NCBI GenBank assembly: GCA_018667995.1 | Contig: JABIQT010001028.1 | Coordinates: 1 to 6,449 of the forward strand | Direction of reading: 5' to 3' | From: Candidatus Latescibacterota bacterium | Lineage (GTDB): Bacteria > JAAXHH01 > JABIQT01 | Length of the DNA: 6,449 nucleotides | Part shown: piece after piece, positions 1 to 6,449 of the stretch | Numbering within the stretch: the first letter of the stretch is position 1 | Layout of the letters: every line of letters starts with the position of its first letter | Program-made: the position numbers and the translations under genes | Notes under the pieces: generated by a model | The model's input: the letters and a program-made list of their open reading frames with translations, nothing else | What the model was told of the DNA's origin: nothing | Database searches by the model: none

Positions 1-591
1 ACCTGATTTCTCGGCGTCTCTAAACCGCGAAAGATCGATGGCACATGGAATCGTGGCGAACCGATTTTCGGGTGCTATCCCATACGTAATGTGATCTCGT
101 TTTCCGAGATCAGTAAGTGTAATTATACGGTCAGTACCACGTGCCATGAGTTTCTCAAGCAAGATAAAGAAGCGAGAAGTGAAGCGGTCGAAATATCCGT
201 GGAAGATGTGTCCATGAGGTGCGTGGACGACGACTGGCGTGCCGGCTATTTTCGCCGCGATACGGCCGAGGATACCGGCCTTAGATGTGTGGGTGTGTAC
301 AACATCCGGCTGGCTCTGTTTGAGTAGTCTTGTAAGATCTCTACAGGCTGCTATATCATCCAGCAGATTTATATCCCGCCGCAATCTCGGAAGGATGGTA
401 ATTGGTATACCTGTCTGTTCGGAAAAGGCCTCCAAGTCGTAGACGGGTTCAACGGTGTGGCCGGTAACAATGCGCGTATCATACCTATCTCGGTCCAGGC
501 GTGCTGCCAGTTCCATAGCAACTTCTGCCGAGCCACCTCTGTCAAGCCTTGTAATAATGTGCGTCAGTTTGACACGCGCTGTAGCTGTCAC
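1..591 (-). CDS. GT4-type glycosyltransferase, N-terminal part (3' end outside window)
   Basis: Reading the minus strand from 591 to the left edge gives 197 codons without a stop, so the gene is cut by the window. The product looks like the acceptor-side Rossmann domain of a GT-B fold, GT4-family glycosyltransferase. Seen directly: a first strand and glycine loop (LTHIITRLDRGGSAE, residues 9-23), VVHTHTSKAGILGR at 97-110, HGHIFHGYF at 126-134, and the interdomain element IPCAIDLSRF at 181-190. These match bacterial GT4 enzymes that add sugars to lipid-linked glycans at the inner membrane; donor and acceptor cannot be told. The donor-binding domain with the EX7E motif lies outside. The start is a GTG without a clear Shine-Dalgarno; the frame continues open upstream into the radical SAM gene but offers no ATG, GTG or TTG there. 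It follows the radical SAM gene by 52 bases. Confidence 0.9.
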   Translation of the reverse strand, partial: MTATARVKLTHIITRLDRGGSAEVAMELAARLDRDRYDTRIVTGHTVEPVYDLEAFSEQTGIPITILPRLRRDINLLDDIAACRDLTRLLKQSQPDVVHTHTSKAGILGRIAAKIAGTPVVVHAPHGHIFHGYFDRFTSRFFILLEKLMARGTDRIITLTDLGKRDHITYGIAPENRFATIPCAIDLSRFRDAEKSG

Positions 592-625
592 GATCGTTTT
601 CGCTTGTCTGAATGAGAGAGAATTT

Positions 626-636
626 CTATGGCATAG
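626..636. repeat. 11-bp perfect palindrome in the gap before the glycosyltransferase gene
   Basis: CTATG-G-CATAG forms 5-bp arms around one base, inside the 52-base gap between the radical SAM stop and the GT4 start. It is short enough to arise by chance and no function is claimed. Nothing else notable was seen in that gap. Confidence 0.3.
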
Positions 637-643
637 TCGCCCA

Positions 644-1813
644 TTAACCGTAACGATACAGTTCGGTGCATCCGCGTGCACAGACCGGAAAACGTTTCAT
701 TTCCTTGACCGTTCGCCGGTATTCCCGGAACGTTTCGTTATTCCAGATTTCGCTGAATTTATGGTCCCTGACATTGCCGAGGGCATAGTCCATGGAGTGA
801 TACTCTCGAACGTCTCCGTTCGGAAGTACGTAGGCGGCAATCCAAAGACTCAGACACCGCCCCTTGTACCCACCCGGTACGAACTGTTCGTCCGTGTACC
901 AGTTGTGCACTTCGTCGTCTGTCAGATTAGGATAGAAGGCCACAGCAACGGGAGAGTTGATCTTTCTCAGTCCTTCCATCTCCTTTATGAGCACCTTCGT
1001 ATCCATGTCCGGTAGCGCGTCCTGGACAAAACCGAACCAGTCCTGGCAGGGCTTACCGAATTTCTGCTCGTATATTTTGTTGTGAAGGTTGCAGACGTTC
1101 TGAGTCAGGAATAGAAGATGATGAAACGTACAAACCTGCGCTCCGAGTTTCTCGGCGCCTCGTAACACATTTGGCAGATCCTTGTAATTCACTTCATTGA
1201 TTGTGGTATTGGCAGAGATAAACGGCCGGTTTGTATTGTGCCTTATCTTGGCCTCCCGGATGGCCTCCATACCCTCCATCATACGCTGAAATGTACCCTT
1301 TAGACCGCGGGACGCATCGTGGACGTCTTCGTCTCCATCGACAGATAGAATGATTTCATCCATCTTTGCTTCAACGACCTCGTCCGCGTACTTGCTGAGT
1401 AGCATGCCGTTAGTAACCATATTCACACGCATACCCTTGCTCTTAATATATCGAACGATCTCGATCCAATCCTTATAGAGAGTCGGTTCCCCTCCGAACA
1501 GCGTAAAGGTAGGTCGTGAAGGTGCTACGTCATCAATCAGCGCCTTGTATTCTTCCAGGGATAGACTCGCCTTGAGTTCCTGCCCGGTCATGTCCTTGAA
1601 AGCTCCCGCATCACCCCACTGGCCACACATGTGGCAGCGCAGATTGCAGCGGAAGGTAAGGAATAGCGAGATCGTCTCAGGAGGGGCACTAAACCCGTCA
1701 CCCGTCCGATAGGATCTGTATGATTTGAACCGTGCCTGAAAGGCCTGATAGGCATACTTGGGTTGTTTTACGGCTTTCTTAAGGGTACGGCCGATATTGC
1801 GATAGGCCAGCAT
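644..1813 (-). CDS. Radical SAM protein with incomplete SPASM-like C-terminal domain
   Basis: This 389-residue protein carries the radical SAM cluster motif CNLRCHMC (C56, C60, C63), the GGEP motif at 107-110 that contacts SAM, and SVDG at 157-160, so it should bind [4Fe-4S] and cleave SAM. The C-terminal part resembles SPASM/Twitch domains: C320, then PNGDV at 331-335, LGNV at 345-348, EIWN at 355-358, and a terminal CARGC (C378, C382). The cysteine expected in CX9-15GX4C is Y338 here. The substrate is unknown; such proteins occur in surface-polysaccharide loci as well as in peptide-maturation systems, and no precursor peptide is visible. I chose ATG 1813 because GGAG lies 7 bases upstream; the frame stays open to an ATG at 1942 (43 more residues), but that stretch has no ribosome site and contains two inverted repeats. 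The gene lies between the PLP enzyme and glycosyltransferase genes, same strand. Confidence 0.9.
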   Translation of the reverse strand: MLAYRNIGRTLKKAVKQPKYAYQAFQARFKSYRSYRTGDGFSAPPETISLFLTFRCNLRCHMCGQWGDAGAFKDMTGQELKASLSLEEYKALIDDVAPSRPTFTLFGGEPTLYKDWIEIVRYIKSKGMRVNMVTNGMLLSKYADEVVEAKMDEIILSVDGDEDVHDASRGLKGTFQRMMEGMEAIREAKIRHNTNRPFISANTTINEVNYKDLPNVLRGAEKLGAQVCTFHHLLFLTQNVCNLHNKIYEQKFGKPCQDWFGFVQDALPDMDTKVLIKEMEGLRKINSPVAVAFYPNLTDDEVHNWYTDEQFVPGGYKGRCLSLWIAAYVLPNGDVREYHSMDYALGNVRDHKFSEIWNNETFREYRRTVKEMKRFPVCARGCTELYRYG

Positions 1814-1820
1814 AGCGGAG

Positions 1821-1824
1821 CTCC
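1821..1824 (-). promoter_or_regulatory. Ribosome binding site deciding the radical SAM start
   Basis: Minus-strand GGAG is 7 bases upstream of ATG 1813. The in-frame ATGs at 1855, 1852 and 1942 have no comparable site, so this favours the 389-residue form. Confidence 0.6.
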
Positions 1825-1852
1825 GATCCTCTGTGTTGCATCTATTATCCAT

Positions 1853-1892
1853 CATTGTGAACCGACGGAGAGTACCGTCACCATTCACAATG
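1853..1892. repeat. Two-tier inverted repeat in the radical SAM leader
   Basis: Perfect 9-bp arms CATTGTGAA (1853-1861) and TTCACAATG (1884-1892) enclose a second perfect pair, GACGG (1864-1868) and CCGTC (1875-1879), around a six-base loop. Between the tiers are 2 and 4 unpaired bases. As RNA from the minus strand this would fold into a two-stem hairpin ending 39 bases before the preferred radical SAM start; as DNA it could be a dyad operator. There is no T-run after it, so it is not a classical intrinsic terminator. Function is inferred only. Confidence 0.55.
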
Positions 1893-1921
1893 CGAATTTG
1901 AACTGACTGTGGCACGTGTGG

Positions 1922-1943
1922 AATGGGAAATGCAACTCCCATT
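1922..1943. repeat. Inverted repeat shortly after the PLP-enzyme stop
   Basis: AATGGGA (1922-1928) and TCCCATT (1937-1943) are perfect 7-bp arms around an 8-base loop, 24 bases beyond the stop of the PLP-enzyme gene on the minus strand. The bases that follow on that strand are not T-rich, so a rho-independent terminator is not supported; a stabilising 3' hairpin or protein site is possible. Confidence 0.4.
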
Positions 1944-1967
1944 TGTGCAAAGAGTTACGAGCAGGTT

Positions 1968-3167
1968 CTAAGCACCTCGGGAAAGCGCTGATCTGATTGT
2001 GTCGACGATATTGGTTAAGGTCGTAGAATCTATTAACGGGTGGGTAGGTATCAGAATAATGTGGTCTGACATATAACTGGCATTCGGAAACGGATCATCC
2101 GTGCCGCCATATCCCATGTCATAAATACGATGAAGCGGGTCTGGATAGAGTTTCGTTACCTCCACTCCGGTTCTCTCGAATATCATGCCAACCAGCCGTG
2201 AGCGCAATTCTGGATCATCGACCAGTACGGGAAACTGATTATACACCGTATACGTCTGATCAATCAGTACAGGCGTACGTATCCCGCTGAGGCCCTGCAG
2301 GCTGTCACCAAGGAAACTGCCGTTTCTATGGCGTAAATCGCATATGGCCTCAGCACGGTTCATGAGGGTAATTCCCGCGCCAGCAAGCACATCCGGAAAT
2401 TGAAATGAGACAAAGTCCGTGTGCAGTGATGTGTACTTGTATCGACTTATCAGTGCATGCAAAAGCGTGTAGCCAACAGGTCGAACGGCTACACTGAGCG
2501 CCGTCAGGTTTAGAAGTAACTTCGCCTGGTGTGTCATGTTGGCTATAGGTAGCTTTTTTCGCTCCGCCTCGATGAGCTCAAACAGTTCGTCATCTTCTGT
2601 GGCGACTGCGCCACCGACCAGGGTTGACAGATTCTTTCCGCGGTTGAAGCTGATGAATCCCACGTCTCCCAGGGTACCTGTCTGTTTTCCCTGTACCGTT
2701 GTGCCAAATGATGAAGCAGCATCATCAATCACTGCAATGTCTCGATCCGCGATTACTCGGCGGATAGCCGCTACATCCGACGCCAGTCCGAACATGTGTA
2801 CAGGCATGACGCACAAAGTGTCCGAGGTGATCGCCGCATCAAGGCTATCGTGGTCAAGATTGAAAGTTTCGAGCGACACTTCGCAGCATCGAGGTATCAG
2901 CCCTGCTTTACGGATCGGAAGGGTCAGCGACGGTGCGGTGTATGCCGGAATGATTACCTCGCGGCGCGAAGATCGCTGTGCCAATGCGAGCATCGTAATG
3001 TAGCCGGCGGTGGTGCCGGAATTCACGAGGCACAGATCAGGCGTCTGGAGGTATGACTTGAGACGGGATATGTAACGGTCTATCTGATGCCGCCAGAGCC
3101 CTGCGGTGGCGGACGCGATATCGTTGAGGAGCAGCGGCGTGCCTGCAGATGGTATGCGAGTTTTCAT
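1968..3167 (-). CDS. DegT/DnrJ/EryC1/StrS-family PLP-dependent aminotransferase
   Basis: The 399-residue product has the layout and length of the fold-type I sugar aminotransferase family. Visible marks are NSGTTAG (49-55) for cofactor phosphate contact, PAYTAPS (74-80), the MPVHMFG segment (121-127), the cofactor-ring aspartate in IDDAASSFG (D149), and the Schiff-base lysine in SFNRGKNLS (K178). The tail IPTHPLID (373-380) also fits. Relatives transfer an amino group from glutamate to a keto-sugar nucleotide, giving 3- or 4-amino sugars for O-antigen, capsule or glycolipid; the exact substrate is not readable. An unusual hydrophobic stretch at about 215-240 may touch the membrane. ATG 3167 is 18 bases after the response-regulator stop, with a G-rich stretch about 11 bases upstream, so translation may be coupled. 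A dehydratase of the same family cannot be excluded, but the lysine argues for aminotransferase. Confidence 0.9.
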   Translation of the reverse strand: MKTRIPSAGTPLLLNDIASATAGLWRHQIDRYISRLKSYLQTPDLCLVNSGTTAGYITMLALAQRSSRREVIIPAYTAPSLTLPIRKAGLIPRCCEVSLETFNLDHDSLDAAITSDTLCVMPVHMFGLASDVAAIRRVIADRDIAVIDDAASSFGTTVQGKQTGTLGDVGFISFNRGKNLSTLVGGAVATEDDELFELIEAERKKLPIANMTHQAKLLLNLTALSVAVRPVGYTLLHALISRYKYTSLHTDFVSFQFPDVLAGAGITLMNRAEAICDLRHRNGSFLGDSLQGLSGIRTPVLIDQTYTVYNQFPVLVDDPELRSRLVGMIFERTGVEVTKLYPDPLHRIYDMGYGGTDDPFPNASYMSDHIILIPTHPLIDSTTLTNIVDTIRSALSRGA

Positions 3168-3185: not shown

Positions 3186-4163
3186 TCACCCTGTTTCGAT
3201 CGAACGTTCCAACGCGACCAGGAGCATCTCCGCAGATCTTGAGTCCTCGGGGCAGTTCACGACGCCATATTGGGACTTAATGCGATGGGGTATTTGTGCC
3301 GATTCCGGCGGATTTGCAGCGAGTCCATTGATTTCATCACAGAGCCCGGTTGCTTCCTCGGTGGCCTGCGGCAACATGAGGACAAATCGATCATCATCAT
3401 ATCGTGCCAGAAGATCTCCCTCCCGCAGACGACTCTTGATCGCATCCGCTATCCATCTTAGTGTATCAATATCGATCTCATTGGGTGTATCAGCAGATGG
3501 CTCCGCGTAGGCGAATTCGAAGACGGCCAAGGCGAAGTTCCAATGGTATCTTTTGGCTCTCACCACATCTTCTATAATATGCTGCTCAAAATACTGACGA
3601 TTGAATAACCCGGTGTCTTCGTCGATAAAGCTCGACTCTCGCAGCGTCTGATTGATCTCGGCCAGCATCAAGAGGGTGTCCTCTAATTGCTGATTCGCGT
3701 CGGTCAGTTCCGCTGTTTGTTCGCCGACCCTTGTTTCGAGACCGACATTGGTCTCTTCCAGCTGTTTCATCAGCAGTTGGTTCTGGAGCCCGAGCTGGCG
3801 CTTTTCGAGTGCTCGTTGTACAGTCGGACGGATTCGTTGGGGGATTTCCTCCGGTTTCTTGAGGAAATCATAACCGCCTGCTCGCAGTACGTCGATGGTC
3901 ATTTCCAGAGTGCCGAACCCCGTCAACACCACGACTTCGACGGTAGCATCCAGTGCCCGTATGGCTTTCATCATCGAAACGCCGTCCATATTCGGCATTT
4001 TAACATCTGTAACGATGACGTCGAATTCCCCCGGCTTGAACGTACGAAGCCCCTCCTCACCGTCCGTAGCAGTGGTTACGGTGTATCCATCGTGTTCCAG
4101 GAGATCCTTGAGCAATCCCAGAACACGAGGATCATCTTCTACAATCAGTAACCGACCTTCCAT
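3186..4163 (-). CDS. Response regulator: REC domain, coiled coil, degenerate GGDEF domain
   Basis: Residues 1-120 form a receiver domain with acidic pocket D10/D11, phosphoacceptor D53 in VTDVKMPNMDG, T81 and K103-P104, so it should be phosphorylated by an unseen histidine kinase. A long Q/E/L-rich helix (about 117-177) looks like a dimeric coiled-coil linker. Residues 180 to about 325 follow the GGDEF fold: DEDTGLFNR at 181-189 corresponds to the usual D-LTGL-NR, but the active-site GGDEF is DDDRF (256-260), losing both glycines and the glutamate. Cyclase activity is therefore unlikely. The inhibitory-site motif RxxD is kept as REGD (247-250), exactly five residues before the degenerate motif, so it may bind c-di-GMP as an effector. 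ATG 4163 is preferred over GTG 4166 because AGGGA lies 5 bases before it. It precedes the PLP-enzyme gene by 18 bases, suggesting control of the glycan genes. Confidence 0.92.
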   Translation of the reverse strand: MEGRLLIVEDDPRVLGLLKDLLEHDGYTVTTATDGEEGLRTFKPGEFDVIVTDVKMPNMDGVSMMKAIRALDATVEVVVLTGFGTLEMTIDVLRAGGYDFLKKPEEIPQRIRPTVQRALEKRQLGLQNQLLMKQLEETNVGLETRVGEQTAELTDANQQLEDTLLMLAEINQTLRESSFIDEDTGLFNRQYFEQHIIEDVVRAKRYHWNFALAVFEFAYAEPSADTPNEIDIDTLRWIADAIKSRLREGDLLARYDDDRFVLMLPQATEEATGLCDEINGLAANPPESAQIPHRIKSQYGVVNCPEDSRSAEMLLVALERSIETG

Positions 4164-4168
4164 CACAT

Positions 4169-4218: not shown

Positions 4219-4791
4219 CTAATCAGTCGGTTCTTCGTCTGCGGCTGCCGCGGGCGGATCCGTCGCATCGATTTCGCTATTGTCTGGCGCAGGTTCGGAC
4301 ATGCTGTCTGGCGATGTCGTCTCGGACGACGTATCATCCATGGGCATTTCGTCTGCAGAACTGTTTGCCATCTCGGCGTCCGCGGGCTCTGGGTTTCGAC
4401 TCCGATAGGCCATCAGGTTTTCGAGTACCCGCAAACCCCTCGCATTTTCCTGAAGGGCGGCCTCAATGTTCCCGTCCTCACGGTACTGCTCCGATAGCTG
4501 CTTGTGGAGTTGGGCGAGTTCGAAGTAGATGCCAACCTGTGATGAATCCGCCCTGATAGCGCGGTTGAATTCGATAACAGCCGTATCCAATCGTTCTTCT
4601 TCTATGGCCATATCGGCACGAAATAGGGCCTCTTCCACGGCCATTTGCCCCTCTCTCAGTTCAGTCGAGGCTGCAATGGCACTCTCCATGGTATCCTCGC
4701 TGCTACCGCCACCGAAGAGAAAACACCCCGTTGAAGACATCATAACCAGGGCTCCGATCCCCAGGAGCATGCAACGATGCAAGTAAATCAT
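4219..4791 (-). CDS. TPR-like lipoprotein with acidic low-complexity tail
   Basis: The 190-residue product begins with a lipoprotein signal: a hydrophobic segment (about 8-19) and the lipobox STGC with the acylated cysteine at 23. Residue +2 is Phe, not Asp, so outer-membrane sorting is likely in a Gram-negative cell. A Gly/Ser spacer follows, then helical repeats that fit one or two TPR units (about 51-84 and 87-124, with the pattern A-EEERLDTAVIEFNRAI and DGNIEAALQENARGL). From about 133 to the end the chain is rich in D, E, S, P, A and probably disordered. TPR lipoproteins commonly scaffold envelope complexes; the partner here is unknown. The start ATG has a strong GGGAGGT five bases upstream. 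It lies 67 bases after the cytochrome c stop and 55 before the response-regulator start. I do not recognise a named family. Confidence 0.85.
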   Translation of the reverse strand: MIYLHRCMLLGIGALVMMSSTGCFLFGGGSSEDTMESAIAASTELREGQMAVEEALFRADMAIEEERLDTAVIEFNRAIRADSSQVGIYFELAQLHKQLSEQYREDGNIEAALQENARGLRVLENLMAYRSRNPEPADAEMANSSADEMPMDDTSSETTSPDSMSEPAPDNSEIDATDPPAAAADEEPTD

Positions 4792-4858: not shown

Positions 4859-5179
4859 CTAAAAGGACTTAAGTTTAAGAGCCGCTGCCTTCATATCAAA
4901 ATCCCTGCCACGGTGGTCCAGGTGACAGTCGGCACACAGCAGTTTTTCTTTTCCATGGTCAGGTTCGATCTGGAACTGGAACTCGTGACAAGCCTTACAT
5001 TTATCATTAGACACGGCGCCCCAGGGCTCATGGCATTTCTGGCAGTCGCCGTCTGCACTGGCGTGCCCTTGTAACAACGGCCCACTTTGAAATGCGGCTT
5101 CACCCTCGATTAGATAGGCCCCGATCATAAATCCGAAAGATGCGATGACGCTGGCAATGACCACATATCTGATGAGCAA
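4859..5179 (-). CDS. Membrane-anchored trihaem cytochrome c (CXXCH, cytochrome c3-like)
   Basis: This 106-residue protein has an N-terminal hydrophobic helix (about 5-23) with no obvious cleavage site, so it probably stays anchored with its haems in the periplasm. Three CXXCH haem-attachment motifs are present: CQKCH (46-50), CKACH (61-65) and CADCH (82-86). There are exactly three other histidines, H39, H75 and H89, enough to give each haem bis-histidine coordination as in low-potential cytochrome c3-type proteins; the CHLDHRG segment is typical of that group. Its role is electron transfer, presumably receiving electrons from or donating them to the cytochrome b encoded 8 bases upstream. The start is TTG: no ATG is near, and GAAGGGG overlapping the cytochrome b stop supplies a ribosome site. 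The terminal partner is not in the window. Confidence 0.9.
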   Translation of the reverse strand: MLIRYVVIASVIASFGFMIGAYLIEGEAAFQSGPLLQGHASADGDCQKCHEPWGAVSNDKCKACHEFQFQIEPDHGKEKLLCADCHLDHRGRDFDMKAAALKLKSF

Positions 5180-5182
5180 TTA

Positions 5183-5189
5183 CCCCTTC
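5183..5189 (-). promoter_or_regulatory. Ribosome binding site overlapping the cytochrome b stop, for a TTG start
   Basis: GAAGGGG on the minus strand shares its first bases with the TGA of the cytochrome b gene and lies just before TTG 5179. The overlap points to translational coupling of the two cytochromes. Confidence 0.5.
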
Positions 5190-5985
5190 AATAATATAGT
5201 TCCGTAACAATATGAACAAGAAGCAATGTCATAAGCGCGGCTGAAAGCGGTATATGCGACCAGAGCCATTGACGGATTATGCGTTGGCAGAACATCTGCC
5301 TGTCAAGCTGTTGGTATCGTGTCATCAGAACGTCGGCTGCTAGGAAAGATGCCTGTTCCACAGCGTCTAGTTGATCGGTATCCACCGCCAAGTTCAGAGC
5401 CCGGCGCCGTCGAATCCACCATCCGATGATGTGGAACGGGTTAAGCGAAACCGGGTATGTTCGACCCGAAAATGTCATCTGCACTGCGGCAGCAAAGGAG
5501 GATGACGCCTCATTCTGGATATCGAAGATCTCTTGCCGCATTTCTGCCAGACTTTGCAGAAGCGATTCCTCACGAAATGTATTGTTGCCCATTCTGGCGA
5601 TAGAATACGGGAGCACTTCGTAGAGGATTGTGCCAGCAAATCCACTGATCATCGTCAGAATGAACACTACGGATAGTACGATGGAGATCGTACCGATCAT
5701 CTGGAAGCCAGCGTGCATACCAACGATCAGTCCGGTCAATATTCCCAGGCTTACATGTGATCGCATCCAAACGTCAAGGGATCCTACCGGTCTCTGGTAT
5801 TGTCGCTTCCTGATGGGGAGCAGCATCAGAATAATGACCAGTAATGTTCCAATGATTCCTAGAGTATAACCAATGAAACCACCACCACGCGGAACGGAGA
5901 CGGCTGCGTAATATGCGTAAAACCCAATCAGCGCGGCACAGAACAGGATGGTAACATACAACCAGCGCCTGTTTACAATGTACAT
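5188..5985 (-). CDS. Integral-membrane dihaem cytochrome b (ferric-reductase/NOX-like helix pattern)
   Basis: The 265-residue product has about five membrane helices: roughly 9-31, 37-57, 77-95, 97-121 and 243-262. Helices 3 and 5 each carry two histidines 14 positions apart, H77/H91 and H244/H258. That HX13H pairing in helices 3 and 5 is the haem-binding layout of the ferric reductase/NADPH oxidase membrane domain and resembles that of bc-type cytochrome b, so two stacked b haems across the membrane are expected. Basic residues at 59-76 and 192-195 place the 2-3 loop and the long 4-5 loop (122-240) in the cytoplasm by the positive-inside rule, with the C-terminus outside. No flavin or NAD(P) domain is present. 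ATG 5985 follows GGGGTGG by 8 bases; the frame is open upstream to a TTG at 6060, but those residues look non-coding. It is the first gene of the minus-strand run. Confidence 0.85.
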   Translation of the reverse strand: MYIVNRRWLYVTILFCAALIGFYAYYAAVSVPRGGGFIGYTLGIIGTLLVIILMLLPIRKRQYQRPVGSLDVWMRSHVSLGILTGLIVGMHAGFQMIGTISIVLSVVFILTMISGFAGTILYEVLPYSIARMGNNTFREESLLQSLAEMRQEIFDIQNEASSSFAAAVQMTFSGRTYPVSLNPFHIIGWWIRRRRALNLAVDTDQLDAVEQASFLAADVLMTRYQQLDRQMFCQRIIRQWLWSHIPLSAALMTLLLVHIVTELYY

Positions 5986-5993
5986 TATGAAGA

Positions 5994-6000
5994 CCACCCC
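5994..6000 (-). promoter_or_regulatory. Candidate ribosome binding site of cytochrome b
   Basis: GGGGTGG on the minus strand, 8 bases before ATG 5985. It is the only G-rich purine run near the plausible starts and argues against the longer GTG/TTG forms. No clear promoter was seen in 5986-6060. Confidence 0.4.
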
Positions 6001-6021
6001 GTTGTAGCTTTCGGGCAGCAC

Positions 6022-6449
6022 CAATTCGCACTTTTTCTTAGCAGGAATGGTGAGCGGCAACTTGCGATCGAAAAATTGGAGGAGGTGCTACGGGTCTACC
6101 GAGAAAGCTTTGGAGTCAATAATCCAAACGTAGCTCGAAGATTAAATGATTTAGCAAGAGCGCAGCGTGATGTGGGAGAAACGGATGCTGCAAAAGAATC
6201 AATGTACAAAGCGCAGCGGATCTTTGGCCAGGTTGAGGAGAACTATGGAAAAGCAACTTACAGGGCCAATGTTCTGCATCACTCAATCTGCCTTCATATT
6301 TTGTCCGCCTTGGAATTTAATAGCGGAAATAAAGAGAAGGGGCTCGAATTAATCTGCAACGCGGGAAAACTCTTGGTCAAGAATGCATCCAAAGAAGGTG
6401 GGGACCTTGCTTCGGAAGAGGGGAGAAAACTGATGATTATGGAGACTCT
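6022..6449 (+). CDS. TPR-repeat protein fragment; 5' end unclear, 3' end outside window
   Basis: The plus-strand frame through GAA 6070 is open to the right edge and reads as tetratricopeptide repeats of the 42-residue, kinesin-light-chain-like type. RNGERQLAIEKLEEVL and DVGETDAAKESMYKAQ align in the same register (G15, A20, L/M24, V/A27), with the two A20 positions exactly 42 residues apart; a third, looser repeat contains NSGNKEKGLELICNAG. TPRs mediate protein-protein contact; nothing else about the role can be said. The frame has no ATG, GTG or TTG between the stop at 5860 and TTG 6076/GTG 6085, yet the first repeat already begins near 6022, so the 5' part seems missing. Composition is lower in GC than the minus-strand genes (26/60 and 25/60 in two lines counted), and AGA and TTA codons appear. 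It diverges from the cytochrome b gene. Confidence 0.65.

Follow-up and report, generated by a model that had tools for sequence, protein, structure and literature searches.

The cytochrome b and the small membrane-anchored cytochrome c encoded side by side in this DNA are probably two of the three subunits, the last two in gene order, of an electron conduit in the inner membrane, in which electrons would enter through an iron-sulphur (Fe-S) protein whose cyclic-nucleotide-binding (CNB) domains would serve as a switch. The stretch analysed here (the window) is an entire contig of 6449 bp, C339, from a draft genome (G000) of 1165 contigs that is 85% complete. An initial annotation of the window had taken the two genes for a self-contained electron-transfer pair. 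Its two b haems, its anchored cytochrome c and the strict pairing of the two genes have stood up to further analysis, while the notion of a two-gene module without Fe-S or flavin subunits has not. We infer that the Fe-S protein, cytochrome b and cytochrome c assemble as one complex, and infer likewise the direction of electron flow and its gating.

The features of the window that bear on the argument are as follows.

5188..5985, minus strand: dihaem cytochrome b of five helices and 265 aa, from ATG 5985 to the stop codon at 5188
4859..5179, minus strand: three-haem cytochrome c with a membrane anchor, 106 aa when started at TTG 5179 and 104 aa at ATC 5173
4219..4791, minus strand: small lipoprotein containing a TPR-like stretch, the gene after the cytochrome c in the operon; both orthologous loci have a similar gene in this position
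3186..4166, minus strand: response regulator carrying a GGDEF-like domain; in G014, too, this gene comes next (L010 1-618)
5986..6449, no strand: operon break; the CNB/4x[4Fe-4S] gene expected here from orthologous gene order is found instead on contig C227

An operon divided between two contigs

The pair, a CXXCH-free b and a CXXCH-rich c, is also present in two further genera belonging to the same taxonomic order, with products that are 51-54% (b) and 63-70% (c) identical. In one of them (G001:C89, locus L009) the cytochrome b gene starts 4 bases past a 476-aa gene encoding a pair of CNB domains with a 4Fe-4S part at the C-terminus, and in the other (G014:C347, locus L010) the same CNB/4x[4Fe-4S] gene again lies directly upstream of b. 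In G000 itself the orthologue, which shares 67% identity with its G001 counterpart, occupies positions 10949-12379 of contig C227 (locus L027), which ends at 12395, 16 bases past the end of the gene. Ahead of it on C227 are genes for Lon protease, a GAF-domain histidine kinase, a second GAF-domain protein, a TPR protein, an SLT transglycosylase and a cytochrome c'-like lipoprotein. This is the order seen in G001, and on that ground C227 and C339 very probably form a single locus. The ends of the two contigs have no stretch longer than 10 bases in common, so it is gene order alone that places them next to each other. With the Fe-S gene directly upstream in both orthologous loci and at the end of C227 in the organism itself, the original claim of a conduit without an Fe-S subunit can no longer be maintained.

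The last ~460 bases of the window (5986-6449) contain a plus-strand, TPR-like frame of lower G+C (PF13424 E 2.7e-6, below the cut-off). This tail is unrelated to the operon and is a chimeric join or an insertion. No second copy of it was found elsewhere in the genome, so a misjoin caused by a repeat lacks support.

On the other side of the pair, the small lipoprotein has counterparts at 10167-10706 in L009 and 629-1129 in L010. The response regulator that follows is tied to the operon by position only. Its GGDEF motif, as judged by eye, reads YDDDRF, which implies that the protein is probably not an active diguanylate cyclase, and the regulator was set aside for this reason as a source of c-di-GMP for the CNB domains. 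The remaining genes (1-3167), on the same strand as the pair, encode a glycosyltransferase, a radical SAM/SPASM protein and a DegT-type aminotransferase, a set of the surface-sugar type that is unrelated to the cytochromes. G014 (VGJU01, Ca. Zixiibacteriota) and G015 (JACQVL01, Ca. Latescibacterota), two genomes assigned to the same taxonomic order as the window, are recorded under conflicting phyla.

A dihaem cytochrome b with a haem site toward each side

The cytochrome b contains two histidine pairs, H77-X13-H91 and H244-X13-H258, and all four residues are invariant across an alignment of 28 sequences. H77 is kept in 59 of 60 homologues and H91 in 60 of 60, and H244 and H258 are found in all 54 homologue rows in which the profile match extends that far. 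The haem assignment had been staked on the persistence of these histidines, and nearly all of about 60 homologues keep the full set. In one locus (L100 6935-7834, G302:C21) Gln replaces H77, and the cluster there shows no Fe-S gene and no reductase gene; in this single case the cytoplasmic-side haem may have been lost along with cytosolic electron entry.

An AlphaFold2 model of the protein (28-row alignment, pLDDT 82) has helices at residues 6-33, 37-60, 70-91, 99-130 and 208-264, with a cytoplasmic helical domain between the last two. Over the 28 rows the mean net charge is +2.5 at the N-terminus and +3.6 in the 2-3 loop, and there is no concentration of positive charge in the 1-2 and 3-4 loops. 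The positive-inside pattern would place the N-terminus, together with loops 2-3 and 4-5, on the cytoplasmic side and the C-terminus outside. This topology supports a haem site on the cytoplasmic side at H77/H244 and another on the periplasmic side at H91/H258, so that the placement of one b haem near each face, as originally read from the window, is borne out by charge topology and alignment alike.

No model in Pfam or NCBIfam covers the cytochrome b, and the window protein has no match at E<=1 to PF01794 (Ferric_reduct); the L009 orthologue reaches 18.6 bits against that model, under the cut-off of 28. A Foldseek search of the model against the PDB gave no match at E<=0.001, and neither VIA-align 2 nor a sequence-profile search of the PDB gave a decisive one. 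The best match to a true cytochrome fold was Dcytb (5zle; Z 9.1, rmsd 3.4 Å, 162 residues), with unrelated helical bundles at similar Z, and STEAP4 (Z 6.3) likewise stood amid unrelated bundles of like Z. Proteins of the PF01794/cytochrome b561 type do resemble the window protein in having two His pairs on two helices and one b haem per face. They differ from it in their partners: the window protein goes with a CNB/4Fe-4S protein in the cytosol and a multihaem cytochrome c in the periplasm.

Distribution and gene neighbourhoods

Scanning genome contigs with a single sequence found no relative, and an alignment of orthologues and paralogues was needed for a profile. That profile retrieved 28 loci from Planctomycetota, Verrucomicrobiota, Lentisphaerota, Ca. 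Poribacteria, Nitrospirota, Pseudomonadota (Thiotrichaceae and another gammaproteobacterium) and one record labelled Ca. Latescibacterota; the scan of viral contigs found no relative of the cytochrome b. In a sample of 294 genomes of Planctomycetota, the phylum of G016, matches at E<=1e-40 were present in 26 and matches at E<=0.001, the weaker of which were partly checked, in 87. All told, the core of Fe-S, b and c genes spans at least seven phyla.

Gene neighbourhoods were tallied at 62 cytochrome b loci, 59 of them distinct after three duplicates were dropped. A multihaem cytochrome c gene lies directly downstream of b in every one (62/62), which answers the earlier suggestion to look for conserved b/c neighbours; separation of the two genes elsewhere, the outcome that would have told against a functional pair, was not seen at any locus. 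Directly upstream of b is the Fe-S gene at 54 of the 59 distinct loci, a count that takes in two with overlapping frames (L071 and L079). The five loci without it are L034 and L040 (Nitrospira-type), L098, L100 and L096, the last of which is a gene fusion.

A 60-row tree unites the cytochromes b of G001, G014 and the window in one clade (100/100) and places beside it, as sister, a set from Planctomycetota termed type B (99/95). Clusters of type A have the order five-haem c, beta-barrel, FAD/NAD/2Fe-2S reductase, four-haem c554-like protein, CNB-4x[4Fe-4S] protein, cytochrome b and ten-haem c, and seven-gene clusters of this kind, porin and NAD(P)H-type reductase included, are found repeatedly across several phyla. 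A model of the type A beta-barrel (pLDDT 76) matches the porins MOMP, OccK and AlgE (Foldseek E about 1e-10), and the protein is predicted to be an outer-membrane porin. L034 and L040 have the same cluster with no CNB-Fe-S gene and with a short reductase match (155-179 aa), and electron entry must therefore differ there. At L096 (6758-9391, G016:C37), FHA, FAD/NAD, 2Fe-2S and cytochrome b parts are joined in a single chain of 877 aa. A ten-haem c gene follows this fusion and a neighbouring gene resembles, by eye, a protein kinase; it is possible that FHA stands here in place of CNB as the sensor. The wider family thus usually has an FAD/NAD/2Fe-2S reductase, once fused to b itself, and the view that no flavin subunit is involved does not hold for it.

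A shortened multihaem cytochrome c

The cytochrome c gene begins its course 8 bases downstream of the cytochrome b gene. Its product has three CXXCH motifs and one uncleaved N-terminal hydrophobic segment (residues 6-24), in agreement with the anchored, three-haem protein first described directly after b. Among its six histidines are exactly three outside the CXXCH motifs (39, 75 and 89), all invariant in the three orthologues, which makes one distal ligand available per haem; judging from these residues, all three haems can be bis-His.

In its three CXXCH motifs and three distal histidines the protein resembles the bis-His three-haem cytochromes c7 of the c7/c3 family. Its scores against PF14522 (16.3 bits, gathering cut-off 24.8) and PF14537 (17.9 bits, cut-off 25) fall below threshold, and it differs from that family both in its uncleaved N-terminal anchor and in its homology to the first three haems of ten-haem partners. 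Indeed, the type B partners, which are 415-491 aa long with nine or ten CXXCH, match it over their anchor and their first three haem motifs (E 4e-12 to 2e-11, 30-36% identity), and this alignment marks it as a shortened form of the ten-haem partner. The ten-haem cytochromes of type A (L011 2543-4588, L012 3390-5711 and others) have Cys-rich repeats before the membrane helix, for example VCGWAAEGRACRVGPDQKGRC; this stretch is predicted to be cytosolic and is absent from the window protein.

Where translation of the c gene begins is doubtful, the choice being between TTG 5179 and ATC 5173. The orthologues have no ATG, GTG or TTG start in common, and the sole candidate found in all of them is the ATC (window 5173; L009 9826; L010 1454, minus strand), which sits in each 9-11 nt past an SD-like stretch. 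An upstream TTG in L009 is followed immediately by TAA, and in L010 there is no ATG, GTG or TTG between the in-frame stop and the ATC. A conserved, non-canonical AUC start is possible on this pattern.

An Fe-S protein with putative nucleotide-binding domains

The protein encoded at the end of C227 has two CNB domains (two CRP-like stretches) followed by 16 cysteines in its last 230 residues, and every member examined has 16 or more within the same span, the number called for by four [4Fe-4S] clusters. Compared with solved structures, a profile of the Fe-S part is closest to HycB3, HycB4 and FHL subunit 2 (E 1e-20 to 1e-22), and a profile of the CNB part to cAMP/cGMP-dependent kinases. Subunits of the HycB/DmsB/HybA type are thus alike in the 16 cysteines of the C-terminal ferredoxin part. 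They are unlike this protein in that it has two CNB domains ahead of the ferredoxin part and its gene, at the loci read, adjoins no molybdenum or hydrogenase subunit. In one relative (L097 5306-8146, G087:C52) an added 2Fe-2S/4Fe-4S region resembling NuoG brings the chain to 946 aa.

The CNB assignment is clear in the L009 orthologue (cNMP_binding, 149 bits against a Pfam cut-off of 27.5), and the window species has a phosphate-binding cassette with the Glu and Arg: YFGEMALLRGEKRSA. This cassette is in the second CNB domain of this protein and of both orthologues and in the first one of type A proteins, the other domain being degenerate. Most of the Fe-S proteins keep a cassette of the form FGE(M/I/L)xxL...R(S/T)A, and about a dozen members do not match this simple pattern. 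That one working cassette is kept per protein suggests that nucleotide binding is under selection.

The electron path and its alternatives

Taken together, these proteins could form a chain in which a cytosolic donor reduces the Fe-S subunit with its two CNB domains and four [4Fe-4S] clusters. From there electrons would pass to the cytoplasmic-side b haem (H77/H244), cross to the periplasmic-side haem (H91/H258) and leave through the three bis-His haems of the anchored cytochrome c for a periplasmic acceptor, perhaps a cytochrome c'-like lipoprotein with a single haem, whose gene immediately precedes that of the Fe-S protein. Electron entry would perhaps be turned on and off by the CNB domains. 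A more specific version of this last step, in which cAMP, cGMP or a related nucleotide on the CNB domains of the cytosolic subunit directly opens or closes electron flow through b to multihaem cytochromes of the periplasm and, for most lineages, of the outer membrane, is put forward tentatively and at less than even confidence.

The strongest evidence for cytosolic entry is the L096 fusion of FAD/NAD and 2Fe-2S modules to cytochrome b, and the NuoG-like extension of the L097 protein also leads one to read the chain as starting from a cytosolic donor. An NqrF-like gene is missing from the locus in the window lineage, and a search of its 85% complete genome for such a reductase gave no close match (best E 1.8e-5). 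Moreover, b and c occur together at the 5 of 59 loci that have no Fe-S gene, so the Fe-S protein is not strictly needed.

The same five loci also fit a quinol-linked enzyme, in which cytochrome b would oxidise menaquinol (or reduce menaquinone) and the Fe-S protein would be a second branch, making the whole a quinol:cytochrome c oxidoreductase or a branch point. Quinones commonly serve as partners of cytochromes b whose two haems lie close to opposite membrane faces, such as those of the bc1/b6f, b561 and NarI types, and the structural model resembles Dcytb and cytochrome b6, albeit amid noise. To our knowledge, the family to which the window protein belongs has no known quinone-site motif. 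The presence of an Fe-S subunit directly upstream in 54 of 59 loci and the fusion of a cytosolic flavin/2Fe-2S module to b in L096 argue against a quinol-linked role, which we consider unlikely.

Less likely still is a flow in the reverse direction, from a donor in the periplasm or outside the cell, for example Fe(II), through the c haems to the Fe-S protein and on to ferredoxin or NAD(P)+. The porin and multihaem cytochromes of the type A clusters would suit such a path, and NAD(P)-type reductase chemistry is reversible. In pairing an outer-membrane porin with several multihaem cytochromes c, the type A relatives are like MtrABC and PioAB/MtoAB, and the known conduits of this kind operate both ways, with reduction in MtrABC and proposed oxidation in PioAB/MtoAB (PMC6344600). 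That said, gene content at the loci gives no mark of iron oxidation or carbon fixation, and the window lineage departs from porin-cytochrome conduits in having no porin gene at its locus, either in the window or in L027.

That b and the three-haem c are a complete two-subunit unit with no Fe-S partner, as their occurrence at the five loci might suggest, is very improbable, given that the Fe-S gene belongs directly upstream in the window's own species and in both orthologues.

Implications for electron transfer across the inner membrane

No description of the CNB/4Fe-4S/cytochrome b/multihaem c set was found in the open-access literature, which is weak evidence of novelty as most subscription journals lie outside that scope. 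Porin-cytochrome systems are already known; the inner-membrane module of Fe-S protein, b and c, with its possible regulatory feature, may be new. For the Verrucomicrobia system proposed by He et al. 2017, the accessible part of the account pairs a porin with an eight-haem cytochrome c encoded next to it, gives the inner-membrane step no name beyond 'ET in IM' and describes no CNB/4Fe-4S-cytochrome b module (PMC5615132). The three-subunit conduit proposed here is a candidate for that unnamed step of porin-cytochrome systems in the phyla concerned.

Entry to multihaem pathways at the inner membrane is usually drawn via quinol dehydrogenases, CymA and those of the Cbc/ImcH type. The Fe-S, b and c proteins of Planctomycetota, Verrucomicrobiota, Nitrospirota and others would be a conserved alternative, a flavin/Fe-S route that could move cytosolic electrons without quinol, and a predicted second-messenger-binding domain sits on its entry subunit. 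If the gating is true, a second messenger would control respiration or extracellular electron transfer post-translationally, through a gene set found in at least seven phyla.
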